Of a DNA stretch of 40,796 bases, positions 17,717 to 40,796 are shown in pieces. Source of the stretch: Candidatus Stahliibacteriota bacterium (GTDB lineage Bacteria; Hydrothermota; Tepidihabitantia; SM23-42); NCBI GenBank assembly GCA_030602565.1, contig JAUVZL010000021.1, forward strand, positions 1 through 40,796. Direction: 5' to 3'. Under the pieces are notes generated by a model that ran no database searches, was not told the origin of the DNA, and saw only the letters and a program-made list of their open reading frames with translations. Numbering within the stretch: the first letter of the stretch is position 1; every line of letters begins with the position of its first letter. A program made the position numbers and the translations under genes.

Positions 17717-18925
17717 CTACAATTTTATCTTCTTTGCCCATGAGCGGTTTTCTGTAAACCATTTAACTGCAGATTCTATACCCTGCTCTAATTTTATTTT
17801 TGGCTGCCAGGCAAGAATATTTTTTGCCTTGGTTATGTCAGCCCAGGTTGCCTGCATGTCAGCAGGATGGAATGGTTCATGTACAATCTTTGCTTTCTTG
17901 CCCAGCTTCTCCTCAATAAGCTTCAGAAATTCGAGTAATTCATGAGGTTGATCACAGCCAAGGTTTATTATATCAAAACCCAAAGGTTTTAATGCCATTA
18001 TTGTACCGCGGGCAATATCATCAACATATGTGAAATCACGTGACTGTTTACCGTCACCATAGATGATCACGGGTTTTTCTTGATAGACCCAGGAAATAAA
18101 TCGTAAAGGACTCATATCAGGTCTGGATGCTGGTCCGTACACAGTGAAATACCTTAAAATCGTTATATCTATATCGTATAAGTTATGATAGGTATAGCAC
18201 GTTACTTCAGCACTCTTCTTTGATGCAGCATAGGGTGATATGGGTTCATTTACGGGCAAATCTTCTTTAAACGGCATTTTCTGTCCTGCATAGAGCGAGG
18301 AGGTCGATGCAAGAATGAATTTTTTCACACCAAATTCACGACATAGTTCGAGAAGGTTTAAAGTACCTATGACGTTTGTCGTATAATAGACAAACGGGTT
18401 TTCCAAACTGTAGCGAACACCGGCACGGGCAGCGAGATTTATTATTGCGAGAAACGGAGCAGAGGAGCAGGGGTGATGAGTAGAATTTGTTACACCCTCA
18501 CCCCCTGAAACAAGTTCAGGGCAGGCTTTACCCTCTCCCATCAAGGGAGAGGGAATATGAGTTGGTGCACCTCCCTTCAAGGGAGAGGGATTTTTGAGAG
18601 TTGAATATTGCTGAAAGAGCTTCTTAAGAGAATCGTAATTTTCGATGTCGAGTTTGTGAAAAATAAATTTAGATTCATACGGACTTTGGGATTGATTCAT
18701 ACTGATTTTATTTAATTGCTCGAGGCGCCATTGTTTTAGGCGGACATCGTAGTAGTCGTTCATGTTGTCTATGCCGATGACGTTGACAGATTTTACCCCC
18801 TCACCCTTACCCTCTGCTTCAAGAGATGAGGGAATGAGATCAGGTTTTGTGAGGAGGAATTCACATACTTTCCAGCCGATAAAACCAGCCGCGCCGGTGA
18901 CTAATATATTTATTTGATGAGACAT
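17717..18925 (-). CDS. UDP-glucuronate 4-epimerase-like SDR enzyme with palindrome-derived inserts
   Basis: Extended short-chain dehydrogenase/reductase. NAD-binding TGAAGFIG at 10-17, IDNMNDYYDVRLKQWR (typical of UDP-glucuronate 4-epimerases), catalytic YAASK, and YFTVYGPASRPDM. It should interconvert UDP-glucuronate and UDP-galacturonate for the neighbouring locus. The frame extends to an ATG at 18943, but that ATG overlaps the TATAAT box at 18940-18935; the next ATG, 18925, sits 9 nt past the box and begins MSHQINILVTG, so I choose it (402 residues). The family is usually about 320-340 residues. The excess comes from two in-frame inserts, residues about 28-46 and 108-156, made of hairpin repeats (Pro/Ser/Gly/Glu-rich, e.g. 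PSPLMGEGK). Confidence 0.85.
   Translation of the reverse strand: MSHQINILVTGAAGFIGWKVCEFLLTKPDLIPSSLEAEGKGEGVKSVNVIGIDNMNDYYDVRLKQWRLEQLNKISMNQSQSPYESKFIFHKLDIENYDSLKKLFQQYSTLKNPSPLKGGAPTHIPSPLMGEGKACPELVSGGEGVTNSTHHPCSSAPFLAIINLAARAGVRYSLENPFVYYTTNVIGTLNLLELCREFGVKKFILASTSSLYAGQKMPFKEDLPVNEPISPYAASKKSAEVTCYTYHNLYDIDITILRYFTVYGPASRPDMSPLRFISWVYQEKPVIIYGDGKQSRDFTYVDDIARGTIMALKPLGFDIINLGCDQPHELLEFLKLIEEKLGKKAKIVHEPFHPADMQATWADITKAKNILAWQPKIKLEQGIESAVKWFTENRSWAKKIKL
18461..18600. repeat. Three consecutive palindromes inserted in frame in the epimerase
   Basis: In gene sense three hairpins follow one another: CCCTCTCCC-TTGA-AGGGAGG, CCCTCTCCC-TTGAT-GGGAGAGGG, and CCCTGAAC-TTG-TTTCAGGG followed by GGTGAGGG. 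Together they encode roughly residues 110-150, which have no counterpart between the conserved DIEN and INLAARAG blocks of the family. Confidence 0.75.
18788..18844. repeat. Smaller palindromic insert near the epimerase N-terminus
   Basis: In gene sense CCCTCATCTCTTGAAG...CAGAGGG...GGTGAGGGGG forms a nested hairpin and encodes about residues 28-46 (PSSLEAEGKGEG), between the first helix and the second strand of the Rossmann fold, where the family normally has only a few residues. Confidence 0.65.
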
Positions 18926-18934
18926 TATCAGACC

Positions 18935-18962
18935 ATTATACAAATATTCACGGTAGAGTCAA
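18935..18962 (-). promoter_or_regulatory. Promoter of the epimerase gene
   Basis: On the minus strand TTGACT (18962-18957), 16-nt spacer, TATAAT (18940-18935). It fixes the start codon at 18925, leaving a leader of only two or three bases. Confidence 0.8.
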
Positions 18963-32035: not shown

Positions 32036-32671
32036 ATGAAACCTAAGAGTATCATTCTCCTATCCGGCGGTCTTGACTCTTTAGTCAGCGCGACAATTGC
32101 CAAGAAGAAAACAAGACCGCTATTTGCGCTAACATTTGATTATGGCCAACGGGCTGCAAAAATGGAAATTTCCTCATCCAGAAAGATATGTAAGGCATTA
32201 CAAATCAAACACAAGGTTGTCAAAATACCTTTTTTCAAAGAATTTAAGAAACTCCTTATGCTTCAGTCCAAGAATGTCAGTATTAGGAAATTTAGCAACT
32301 TGAAGAACGTTTGGATTCCAAACAGAAATGGTCTTTTCATAAATATTGCTGCGTGTTATGCAGAATATGTAGGCGCCGAGTTCATTATTACAGGGTTTAA
32401 CCGCGAAGAAGCCGAAGAATTCCCGGATAACAGACCACAATTCATGGCAGCAATGAATCATACACTCATGTTTAGCACGCTTACAAAGGTTAAGGTGAGA
32501 AGCTTTGTTCTTGAATATACAAAGAAACAAATCTACAAACTCGGACTAAAATACAGTGCGCCTATGCGATATATCTACTCATGCTATCTTGGAAGAAAAG
32601 AAATGTGCGGTAAATGCGCCTCCTGCAAGAAACTTATCAAAGCCAGGGAGAACAGAAAGACCTTCCGTTAA
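32036..32671 (+). CDS. queC: 7-cyano-7-deazaguanine synthase
   Basis: 211 residues from ATG 32036 (a TTG 15 bp upstream is possible). The PP-loop ATP site is SGGLDS, FDYGQRA and GFNREEAEEFPDNRPQF match QueC, and the zinc site is C-x8-CGKCASC near the C-terminus. It converts carboxydeazaguanine to preQ0. No clear ribosome site or promoter is visible; 31915-32030 holds short GAAGTT-type repeats and a CGACGGGGCG/CCCC hairpin. queE is not in the window. Confidence 0.9.
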   Translation: MKPKSIILLSGGLDSLVSATIAKKKTRPLFALTFDYGQRAAKMEISSSRKICKALQIKHKVVKIPFFKEFKKLLMLQSKNVSIRKFSNLKNVWIPNRNGLFINIAACYAEYVGAEFIITGFNREEAEEFPDNRPQFMAAMNHTLMFSTLTKVKVRSFVLEYTKKQIYKLGLKYSAPMRYIYSCYLGRKEMCGKCASCKKLIKARENRKTFR

Positions 32672-32677
32672 GACCTA

Positions 32678-32763
32678 TGGAGTGCAACGAGTCCTCTCGT
32701 TATAACTATGGAGTGCAACGGGTCTGCGATGAGCTCAGTCGAATCGTCCTCTCGTTGCGAAAT
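32678..32763. repeat. REP-like palindromes upstream of the RAYT gene
   Basis: Two copies of ATGGAGTGCAACG: the first (32678-32705) reads TGCAACGAG, short loop, CTCTCGTT; the second (32708-32763) is longer, with a GAGCTC-containing loop between GTGCAACG and CTCTCGTTGC. The stem motif CAACGAGA/TCTCGTTG is shared with copies downstream of the gene and inside pdp. Confidence 0.75.
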
Positions 32764-32772
32764 TATGAAACT

Positions 32773-33336
32773 ATGAACAAAAATAACGCTAAATACATAA
32801 TCTACAAACATAATCCACCCCATCTTTTCCTATCAAATGCTACCTATATAATAACCGCATCTATTTATAAAAGAAAAAGATTTTTTCACAATGATGAGCT
32901 AAAAAGTCTTATACTAACTTCTATTCTACACTATTTCTCGAAATACTCATGGCATATTAAGGCATATGTAATTTTAACAAATCATTATCACTTATTGGTA
33001 CATGCCCCAGAAAACAATGTATCCTTATCAAAAATCATATCAAAAATCATAAATAATATACATAGATATACCGCTCACAAAATCAATCAAATAAATAAAA
33101 AATCGGGAATGAAAATATGGTGGAATTATTGGGATACTTGTCTGACTTATGAAAAATCATATTATGCACGATTAAATTACATTCACTTTAATCCAGTAAA
33201 ACATGGGTATGTAGATGATCCAACGAAATGGAAATTTAGTAGTTATAATGAATTCTGTGAATCAAACTATACTGAAGCGAAAAGGGTCGAAAAAGAATTT
33301 CCATTTGAGAGGGTAAAGGTGTATGATGAATTTTAA
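32773..33336 (+). CDS. REP-associated tyrosine transposase (RAYT)
   Basis: 187 residues. Y1/HUH transposase with the metal-binding HYH at 71-73 in LTNHYHLLVHAPE and the C-terminal NYIHFNPVKHGYVDD and WKFSSYNEF blocks typical of TnpA-REP proteins; a Tyr in the YYARLNYIHF helix is the likely nucleophile. RAYTs nick and move REP palindromes as single strands. Upstream in-frame codons only translate repeats, so I choose ATG 32773. REP-like palindromes flank the gene on both sides. It has no ribosome site and is AT-rich compared with queC and pdp. Confidence 0.9.
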   Translation: MNKNNAKYIIYKHNPPHLFLSNATYIITASIYKRKRFFHNDELKSLILTSILHYFSKYSWHIKAYVILTNHYHLLVHAPENNVSLSKIISKIINNIHRYTAHKINQINKKSGMKIWWNYWDTCLTYEKSYYARLNYIHFNPVKHGYVDDPTKWKFSSYNEFCESNYTEAKRVEKEFPFERVKVYDEF

Positions 33337-33353
33337 AAGAAAAAACAAAGAAA

Positions 33354-33418
33354 AGACGCAACGAGAGACTCGTCGCAGTCCAAACCTAAAAAGGACGTAA
33401 TGAGAAATTCGTTGAATC
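33354..33418. repeat. REP-like palindromes downstream of the RAYT gene
   Basis: GACGCAACGAG-AGA-CTCGTCGC (33354-33380) is followed by a degenerate copy GACGTAATGAG...TTCGTTGAATCC (33394-33418). The second contains the ATG of pdp, so the repeat seems to have supplied the start codon region. Confidence 0.65.
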
Positions 33419-34731
33419 CAAAAGTTATTATTCGTAAAAAACGCGATGGTAAAAAATTAAATGAACACGAAATAAAGTATCTGATTTCTGAATACACAAA
33501 ATACAATATCCCTGACTATCAACTGGCTGCTTTTTTAATGGCGGTGTATTTTCAGGGTATGGATTTTAAAGAAACCACTGATTTGATGCAAGCCATGATG
33601 CACACTGGAAAGACGCTCAACCTTTCAGAAATTAAAAAGCCAAAGATCGACAAGCATTCTACGGGCGGCGTCGGTGATAAGGTATCACTTATTCTGGCAC
33701 CTTTGATGGCATCATGTGGTATCTGTGTTCCCATGATCTCGGGTCGCGGTCTGGGGCATACAGGTGGTACTTTAGACAAATTAGAATCAATCCCCGGGTT
33801 TCGCACTAATCTAACGCTCAAAGCATTCAAGCGCCAGTTAAAAAAACTCGGCGTTGCCATGATTGGGCAAACCGCAGAAATTGCGCCAGCCGACAAAAAA
33901 ATATATGCCTTGCGCGATGTAACAGCAACGGTTGATTCAATACCACTCATATCTGCAAGTATTATGTCGAAAAAGCTTGCTGAAGACCTCGATGGTCTGG
34001 TGCTCGATGTTAAGTTTGGCAGTGGCGCATTCATGGCCGATTTAGAAAAAGCAAAAAGACTCGCGCGCACCATGATTCAAATCGGCAAACGCTTTGGAGT
34101 GCAACGAGACTCTCGTTGCAGAAAAATTAAAGTCATCGCCATCCTAACTGACATGAATAATCCTTTGGGAAAATATATTGGTAATTCTCTGGAAGTTATT
34201 GAGGCGATTGAATCATTAAAGGGCAGGGGTCCAAAGGATTTGATGGAAGTTACGTTCGCGCTTGGCAAGGCAATGCTTAAGCTCGCTAAAATTAAAGGCG
34301 GGAAAAAACTCATTGAGAAAAAGATAGCAAACAGTGAAGCCTTAAATAAATTTAAAGAGATTATTTATTATCAGAGTGGTGATGTCCGTATCATTGATGA
34401 TTATTCACGTTTACCAGTAGCAAAAAATAGAATTAAAATCAAAGCACAACAAACAGGGTATATACATCATATTGATACTTTTGATATCGGTCTGTTGCTC
34501 GTACAATTGGGCGGGGGTAGACTTAAAAAAGAAGACAAACTCGACCCATCATGCGGGTTTAAAATCCACAAAAAGATTGGTGATTATGTAAAAAAAGGCG
34601 AATGTTTAATGGAAATCATTTGTGACAATCGATCTAAAGCAAGGGCTGTGGCCAAACAAATGCATGCAGTATTTACGATCAAAAGAAAATCCTGCCGTAG
34701 TAAAAAATTGATACGAGAAACAATTCATTAG
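33400..34731 (+). CDS. pdp: Pyrimidine-nucleoside phosphorylase with palindrome insert
   Basis: 443 residues. The family signature KHSTGGVGDKVSLILAPL and SGRGLGHTGGTLDKLESIPGF are intact, as are KKLAEDLDGLVLDVKFGSGAFM and the C-terminal QTGYIHHIDTFDIG. It phosphorolyses thymidine/uridine to base and (deoxy)ribose 1-phosphate. In related enzymes IGKRxG is followed at once by the TxAVI(S/T)DM strand, but here about nine extra residues (VQRDSRCRK) intervene, encoded by a 21-bp palindrome of the neighbouring RAYT's repeat family. The frame stays open, and the site is a surface turn before a strand. The native start may be TTG 33412 (MNPKVIIRKKRDGK); ATG 33400 lies in a degenerate repeat. Confidence 0.88.
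   Translation: MRNSLNPKVIIRKKRDGKKLNEHEIKYLISEYTKYNIPDYQLAAFLMAVYFQGMDFKETTDLMQAMMHTGKTLNLSEIKKPKIDKHSTGGVGDKVSLILAPLMASCGICVPMISGRGLGHTGGTLDKLESIPGFRTNLTLKAFKRQLKKLGVAMIGQTAEIAPADKKIYALRDVTATVDSIPLISASIMSKKLAEDLDGLVLDVKFGSGAFMADLEKAKRLARTMIQIGKRFGVQRDSRCRKIKVIAILTDMNNPLGKYIGNSLEVIEAIESLKGRGPKDLMEVTFALGKAMLKLAKIKGGKKLIEKKIANSEALNKFKEIIYYQSGDVRIIDDYSRLPVAKNRIKIKAQQTGYIHHIDTFDIGLLLVQLGGGRLKKEDKLDPSCGFKIHKKIGDYVKKGECLMEIICDNRSKARAVAKQMHAVFTIKRKSCRSKKLIRETIH
34100..34120. repeat. REP-like palindrome inside pdp
   Basis: Perfect stem TGCAACGAGA / TCTCGTTGCA around a single C, preceded by GGAG as in the copies at 32678 and 32708. Its 21 bp keep the reading frame and encode the extra residues of pdp. 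Confidence 0.85.
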
Positions 34732-40508: not shown

Positions 40509-40655
40509 CCCTCTGATTTATCAGACATGAATTGACCACTATTTTAATGTACAGGTCATTAGCTTTGTTTGATAAATCAAACGACTACAAACACGCACCT
40601 GTAGTTCCCTGATTTATCAGGCATGAACATGGCTATAAGCCCAATAAATTGGGCA
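40509..40655. repeat. Tandem two-hairpin palindromic repeats after alaS
   Basis: Two consecutive units. The first starts GTAGTCCC with hairpin TCTGAT-TT-ATCAGA and ends with TTTGAT-AA-ATCAAA followed by CGACTACA. The second starts TGTAGTTCC with CCTGAT-TT-ATCAGG and ends with CCCAAT-AA-ATTGGG followed by CAACT. The first arm always has loop TT, the second AA. The terminal 141-bp repeat begins at the last ACT. Confidence 0.7.
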
Positions 40656-40796
40656 ACTTATATGTTATACTATAACATGATTATAGAGCTTTCAATAGAA
40701 GCACTAAAGAAAGTCTTTTCTTTAAAGGGAAAGAAAAGAAAGGATTACGCTATCAGCAATTCTTCGGACCAAACAGATATAAATCGCCATCAGCAT
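40656..40796. repeat. Right copy of 141-bp inverted terminal repeat
   Basis: Exact reverse complement of 1-141. It starts 21 bp before the ATG of the truncated ORF, so the repeated element's edge is close to its gene. Confidence 0.95.
40677..40796 (+). CDS. Truncated ORF of a repeated element (first 40 codons)
   Basis: Identical to the left-end ORF, running off the right edge with no stop. A TATACT box (40666-40671) lies 5 nt before the ATG, but no -35 is visible. Possibly a transposase; family not recognised. Confidence 0.45.
   Translation, partial: MIIELSIEALKKVFSLKGKKRKDYAISNSSDQTDINRHQH

Follow-up and report, generated by a model that had tools for sequence, protein, structure and literature searches.

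An in-frame REP palindrome with a GGAG foot in the pyrimidine-nucleoside phosphorylase gene of a Candidatus Stahlbacteria genome, beside a RAYT gene

The pyrimidine-nucleoside phosphorylase gene (pdp) of an uncultured Candidatus Stahlbacteria (WOR-3) bacterium carries, within its reading frame, a palindrome of a REP family that is associated with the neighbouring RAYT (TnpAREP) gene. It is very probable that a single REP of this family, with a GGAG foot, inserted in pdp in the common ancestor of the genome studied (G000) and its congener G003, with a net gain of 27 bp. The window (the whole stretch of DNA that was analysed) is a complete contig of 40,796 bp. Its ends (1-153 and 40644-40796) form a 153-bp inverted repeat with 98% complementarity, probably because the assembly broke within a repeat or because an element ends there. 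The features of the pdp locus are as follows.

32036..32671, plus strand: queC, the upstream gene of the locus (PF06508, 177 bits)
32678..32703, plus strand: left flanking REP 1 of the RAYT gene (sequence repeat match)
32709..32759, plus strand: left flanking REP 2 of the RAYT gene, with about 25 nt of inner sequence splitting its stem (sequence repeat match)
32773..33336, plus strand: RAYT (TnpAREP, Y1/HUH transposase) with an intact HYH motif and a catalytic-type Tyr (NF047646, PF01797, 4er8)
33356..33381, minus strand: right flanking REP of the RAYT gene, inverted, a 27-nt, 89% match to the pdp REP that is also found in G001
33393..33419, minus strand: degenerate REP at the RAYT/pdp junction, containing the predicted pdp start codon at 33400 (G003/G001 comparison)
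33400..34731, plus strand: pdp, encoding a pyrimidine-nucleoside phosphorylase of 443 aa, with the REP in its reading frame (Pfam PF02885/PF00591/PYNP_C)
34096..34099, plus strand: GGAG, the unpaired foot 5' of the REP hairpin, also present in the REPs of related RAYTs (L042, L063 and L043)
34100..34120, plus strand: REP hairpin within pdp, TGCAACGAG-ACT-CTCGTTGCA, identical in G003
34100..34126, plus strand: net insertion of 27 bp encoding the extra residues Q235-I243, with ends ambiguous by at most 7 bp (alternative 34093-34119)

The 21-bp palindrome that the first-pass annotation had described at 34100-34120 (TGCAACGAGACTCTCGTTGCA) forms a hairpin whose 9-bp stem is perfect and whose loop has 3 nt; as single-stranded DNA, this hairpin has a predicted folding energy of -9.4 kcal/mol (z = -3.5). 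Pdp is a nucleotide-salvage enzyme and, apart from the insert, an otherwise normal one with intact domains, scoring 553 bits against TIGR02644 (cutoff 409) and aligning to PDB 1BRW with E=1.6e-122 (phmmer). Residues 235-243 have no counterpart in 1BRW, and the alignment is unbroken on both flanks. At this position the window Pdp has IGKRFGV-QRDSRCRKI-KVIAILTDM, against IGKRxGVKVxAxLTDM in homologues drawn from its family, order and class. Measured in this way against 1BRW and relatives, the gain of about nine residues that had been proposed is exactly nine (27 bp), and the frame is intact. These residues lie in a loop that links helix 215-231 to strand 244-251 of an AlphaFold2 model, in which residues 234-240 have a pLDDT below 50 (whole-model mean 87.6). 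The named Pdp relatives are MAGs of Candidatus Stahlbacteria / WOR-3. Homologues outside the genus lack the insert, and an ancestral Pdp loop is ruled out by its absence from many genera.

Comparison of pdp between G000 and G003, with the insert excluded, gives a dN of 0.033, a dS of 0.223 and an omega of 0.149. At this dN/dS of 0.15 outside the insert, purifying selection has acted on pdp while it carried the insertion. A pseudogene reading is ruled out by this value together with the intact domains.

The palindrome is repeated in the source genome: the exact half-site TGGAGTGCAACGAG is found 15 times in G000, 12 times in G003, four times in G002 and once in G001, against a chance expectation of well under one. 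A chance palindrome is ruled out by this copy number and by exact homology to dispersed copies. The earlier suggestion to look for the stem elsewhere in the genome was borne out to the extent of these 15 half-sites; copies of the pdp-type REP in G000 are nevertheless few (about 20 by pattern search, which undercounts degenerate copies) and mostly intergenic. Neither of the results that the first-pass annotation had named as refutations was obtained. A palindrome pattern allowing 3 mismatches gave hits at control level and was left out. Most G000 copies are inverted doublets, GGAGTGCAACGAGTCCCCTCGTTGCATGCAATGTCAGGAGACATTGCACTCC (GGAGTGC..GCACTCC), outside long reading frames, and a GGAG foot is found in the dispersed copies L127-L140. 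The majority of pdp-type copies are held by a larger dispersed element, CTCGTTAAATR-REP doublet-AAAATACGGGCGTAAACGCC (L128, L130-L132, L134-L138 and L144-L156). In G003 and G002 alike, one copy lies just before dnaJ; the REPs that give long open frames there (L144 and L155) precede the start codon and were left out of the intragenic count.

With respect to class, the pdp palindrome has the short hairpin (20-40 bp) and genomic repetition of a REP, and its family flanks a RAYT gene in inverted orientation. The canonical REP foot is GT[AG]G, and atypical feet have been published for other REP subclasses. GGAG stands in place of GTAG or GTGG in the pdp copy, as it does in most of the remaining copies and in related REP families; we did not find this foot in the REP literature checked. 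Since TGGAGTGCAACGAG is dispersed 15 times and the repeat flanks an intact RAYT, the pdp palindrome is, judged by its sequence, a non-canonical REP of this RAYT clade in which GGAG replaces GT[AG]G.

The RAYT scores 106 bits against NCBIfam NF047646 (curated cutoff 80) and matches its solved relative, PDB 4er8 (TnpArep), with E=8e-8. Alignment places HYH at 72-74 and Y137 in LNYIHFNPVKHG, in agreement with a predicted Y1 HUH enzyme with HxH and one catalytic Tyr. The first-pass annotation was correct that the stem in pdp also flanks this gene (on the left at 32678 and 32709, on the right at 33356-33381), with about 760 bp from the RAYT stop to the palindrome: a REP-type palindrome stands in frame in a functional gene, beside an intact RAYT with the same REP on its flanks. 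Inverted REPs flank the RAYT on both sides on contig C1 of G000 and at locus L042 of G028, and on the right side in G001. G028 belongs to another family of the class; its RAYT is 49% identical and is flanked by GGAGTGCAACGAG-CGT-CTCGTTGC..GCACTCC and the inverse, with the same stem. Two further RAYTs (44% identical; G000 C53 and G003 C13) are flanked by GGAGTGC-type REPs with other stems. The RAYT and pdp genes are joined by REPs (window 33337-33419; L041/L088 1-620), and the G001 pdp frame, from its predicted start at an ATG that overlaps the RAYT stop codon, stays open through two REPs. REPs with a stem split by the inner sequence CTGCGAYGAGCTCAGTCGAATCGTC (window 32709-32759; L153; L157) are present in G000, G003 and G002, which suggests a repeat nested inside a REP loop.

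The site in pdp is filled, empty or further expanded in the three congeners (G000 included) on which the insertion polymorphism is based; a fourth genome, G002, gave no pdp match. In G001, the relative lacking the insertion (Pdp identity 75%), a RAYT immediately precedes pdp, the palindrome is absent and the empty site reads GCAGGAGTAAAGGTC. G003 (Pdp identity 92%) carries the G000 palindrome unchanged and in the same position, within a run of 52 nt (34069-34120) that is identical to G000. After the palindrome, G003 has 117 bp more with two unrelated palindromes; the frame is kept and its Pdp has 483 residues. At the nucleotide level, G000 and G003 are 86-97% identical throughout pdp and over most of the locus around it, and a recombination tract at pdp is ruled out by the lack of an identity step at the insertion. 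No RAYT is found between queC and pdp in G003. Because G000 and G001 align over RAYT and pdp as a single block, with about 83% of nucleotides identical, the RAYT-pdp unit probably predates the insertion and was lost in G003. The pdp N-terminus of G003 is canonical and ancestral-looking (MEFSVLDIIRKK), and it could alternatively derive from recombination with a RAYT-free allele. Further empty/filled pairs were sought at C55 and C41, which were too repeat-rich for a clean empty site.

The ends of the insert can be placed in two ways. An insert at 34100-34126, 3' of a GGAG belonging to the host, requires the fewest substitutions and agrees with relatives that carry TTTGGAGTAAAA (L029) and GCAGGAGTAAAG (L014). 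The other placement is 34093-34119, with the GGAG foot travelling with the hairpin; it is suggested by TnpAREP biochemistry, as the enzyme cleaves at CT 5' or 3' of the REP, so that the foot would travel along (PMC8266576). The placement with fewest substitutions leaves GGAG in the host, contrary to foot transport of this kind, and this is a point against the single-REP history proposed here. The G003 stretch 3' of the hairpin, AAAAAGAA, also tracks a dispersed copy (C41:3447) and thereby favours a right end beyond the hairpin.

In the history that we propose, a RAYT or a relative of it would have moved a single-stranded REP into pdp by HUH chemistry. The allele may have been kept because the insert length, 27, is a multiple of three, its sequence has no stop in this frame and the exposed helix-strand loop is tolerant; the nine extra residues would have no function of their own. 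The G003 loop would later have taken further palindromes, also in frame. The pdp copy is a singlet, and the REPIN work of Bertels and Rainey (2011) found excision of REP doublets and not of single REPs (PMC3116915), which on our reading would count against single-REP mobility here.

The first-pass annotation had the neighbouring RAYT copy its own flanking REP 0.7 kb downstream into pdp, and this short-range origin did not hold up well: we consider it unlikely. The right RAYT REP is indeed an inverted match to the pdp copy over 27 nt (89%), including TTTGGA, and has a 3-nt loop as in pdp; moreover, the RAYT adjoins pdp not only in G000 but also in G001, a more distant genome, and so was probably present when the REP arrived. 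Several dispersed copies nevertheless match better: when copies are ranked by similarity to the pdp REP, the dispersed, intergenic copy C41:3447 is at the top with a score of 25 and other dispersed copies are next, whereas the RAYT-flanking copies reach at most 20-21. G003 also keeps the insertion with no RAYT at the locus, and a single event cannot show a preference for distance. The donor would thus most likely be any dispersed copy, rather than the REPs of the neighbouring RAYT specifically. A local origin is possible given the older RAYT-pdp linkage, also seen in G001, and the neighbouring RAYT may have supplied the enzyme.

Equally doubtful is a longer composite (a REP doublet, or a REP with other palindromes as in G003) that arrived first and was trimmed by deletion in G000. 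The G003 site, at 144 bp, ends in GGATTCC, which is similar to an inverted REP end, and doublets are both the mobile unit in Pseudomonas (PMC3116915) and the form of most G000 copies. One 27-bp insertion suffices for G000, however, and the CCCTCTCCC-type palindrome in the G003 extension is of an unrelated family, making a later nested insertion at least as simple. An origin by template switching or by recombination among repeats, with no transposase, has rather less to recommend it. A common non-RAYT route is conceivable in that unrelated palindrome families, for which we identified no transposase, are also in frame in G000; against this, the pdp palindrome matches a dispersed RAYT-flanking repeat in sequence, GGAG foot included. 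Least probable of all, and very unlikely in our view, is that the hairpin was kept for an action in pdp mRNA or as a DNA site, beyond mere tolerance. It does lie within the 52-nt identical run despite a synonymous divergence of 0.22, but that run already begins in ordinary coding sequence 31 nt before the hairpin, a single run is weak evidence, and the hairpin region has no match in Rfam. Insertion of one REP is preferred over each of these.

An in-frame REP in a gene is an already known kind of event. A 2013 catalogue lists in-frame intragenic REPs in unrelated genes, among them GTAG types associated with RAYTs, from Opitutus terrae, Thauera, Xanthomonas and other hosts, with different REPs at about the same recB site in related species (PMC3733652). 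These GTAG and CGTC REPs are likewise short palindromes of dispersed families, in frame in known genes; the pdp REP differs in its GGAG foot and its Candidatus Stahlbacteria / WOR-3 host. In-frame REPs inside tnpAREP (RAYT) genes of subclass 2.4, reported in 2018 (PMC6006769), are also in coding sequence and directly tied to the transposase family, but there the target is the transposase gene itself and here it is a neighbouring metabolic gene. As with REPINs/BIMEs (PMC3116915), the doublets that make up most G000 copies are spread through intergenic DNA. The likeness to Rickettsia palindromic elements (RPEs) drawn in the first-pass annotation stands at the level of protein behaviour: like an RPE, the pdp REP is an in-frame palindromic repeat inserted in a conserved housekeeping gene, at a tolerated site and with several families per genome. 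It is not the sole resemblance, given the published in-frame REPs (PMC3733652, PMC6006769), and it is one of description and not of compared sequence, with a host from a different phylum. The first-described RPEs, which encode a conserved peptide, are longer, at about 150 bp (PMC10969869), and RPE-4/6 of Rickettsia conorii have been assigned to the CGTC REP family, a class without transposase association (PMC3733652).

To these reports the present case adds the GGAG foot and a host from an uncultured phylum, together with a further gene that holds the pdp REP in frame, an epimerase gene that holds a different palindrome family in frame and, unlike in the GTAG/CGTC catalogue, a comparison of filled, empty and further-expanded alleles of close relatives with a test of selection (dN/dS). 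To our knowledge, there are few cases in which a REP has been caught moving. A filled pair, an empty third relative and a RAYT with the same REP at the same locus make pdp a concrete test case for the placement of REPs by RAYTs, and the locus also bears on how often short mobile hairpins turn into protein sequence.

The second in-frame copy of the pdp REP is in an Eco57I-type adenine methylase (G000 C5:34100-36199; L127), where it is read as ...ENSGVQRVLSLPDGD... after other palindromes. The same methylase loop has no palindrome in G016 and different ones in G017, G023 and G047. The other palindrome family is represented within the window.

17717-18943, minus strand: NAD-dependent epimerase/dehydratase (sugar-nucleotide epimerase), with an in-frame palindrome at 18531-18553

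The epimerase palindrome, CCCTCTCCC..GGGAGAGGG, is of a family distinct from the pdp REP and lies inside a stretch of tens of residues unmatched in the solved relative 5u4q. G000 has 44 copies of the CCCTCTCCC-type palindrome, of which two lie inside long open frames, a count that leaves aside four copies near contig ends or outside the sequence examined. We tentatively suggest, as a possibility rather than the expected outcome, that unrelated palindrome families repeatedly and independently insert in frame in the same surface loops of Pdp, the methylase and the epimerase, altering them between sister species; one of these families would be GGAG-footed and RAYT-linked, with single REPs that are mobile and may choose GGAG targets. 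Such recurrence in the same loops would suggest that loops in this phylum are continually provided with new sequence. The repeat-derived in-frame inserts of the epimerase are PSSLEAEGKGEG and NPSPLKGGAPTHIPSPLMGEGKACPELVSGGEG, and its G003 orthologue has different in-frame repeat-like peptides at or near the same places.
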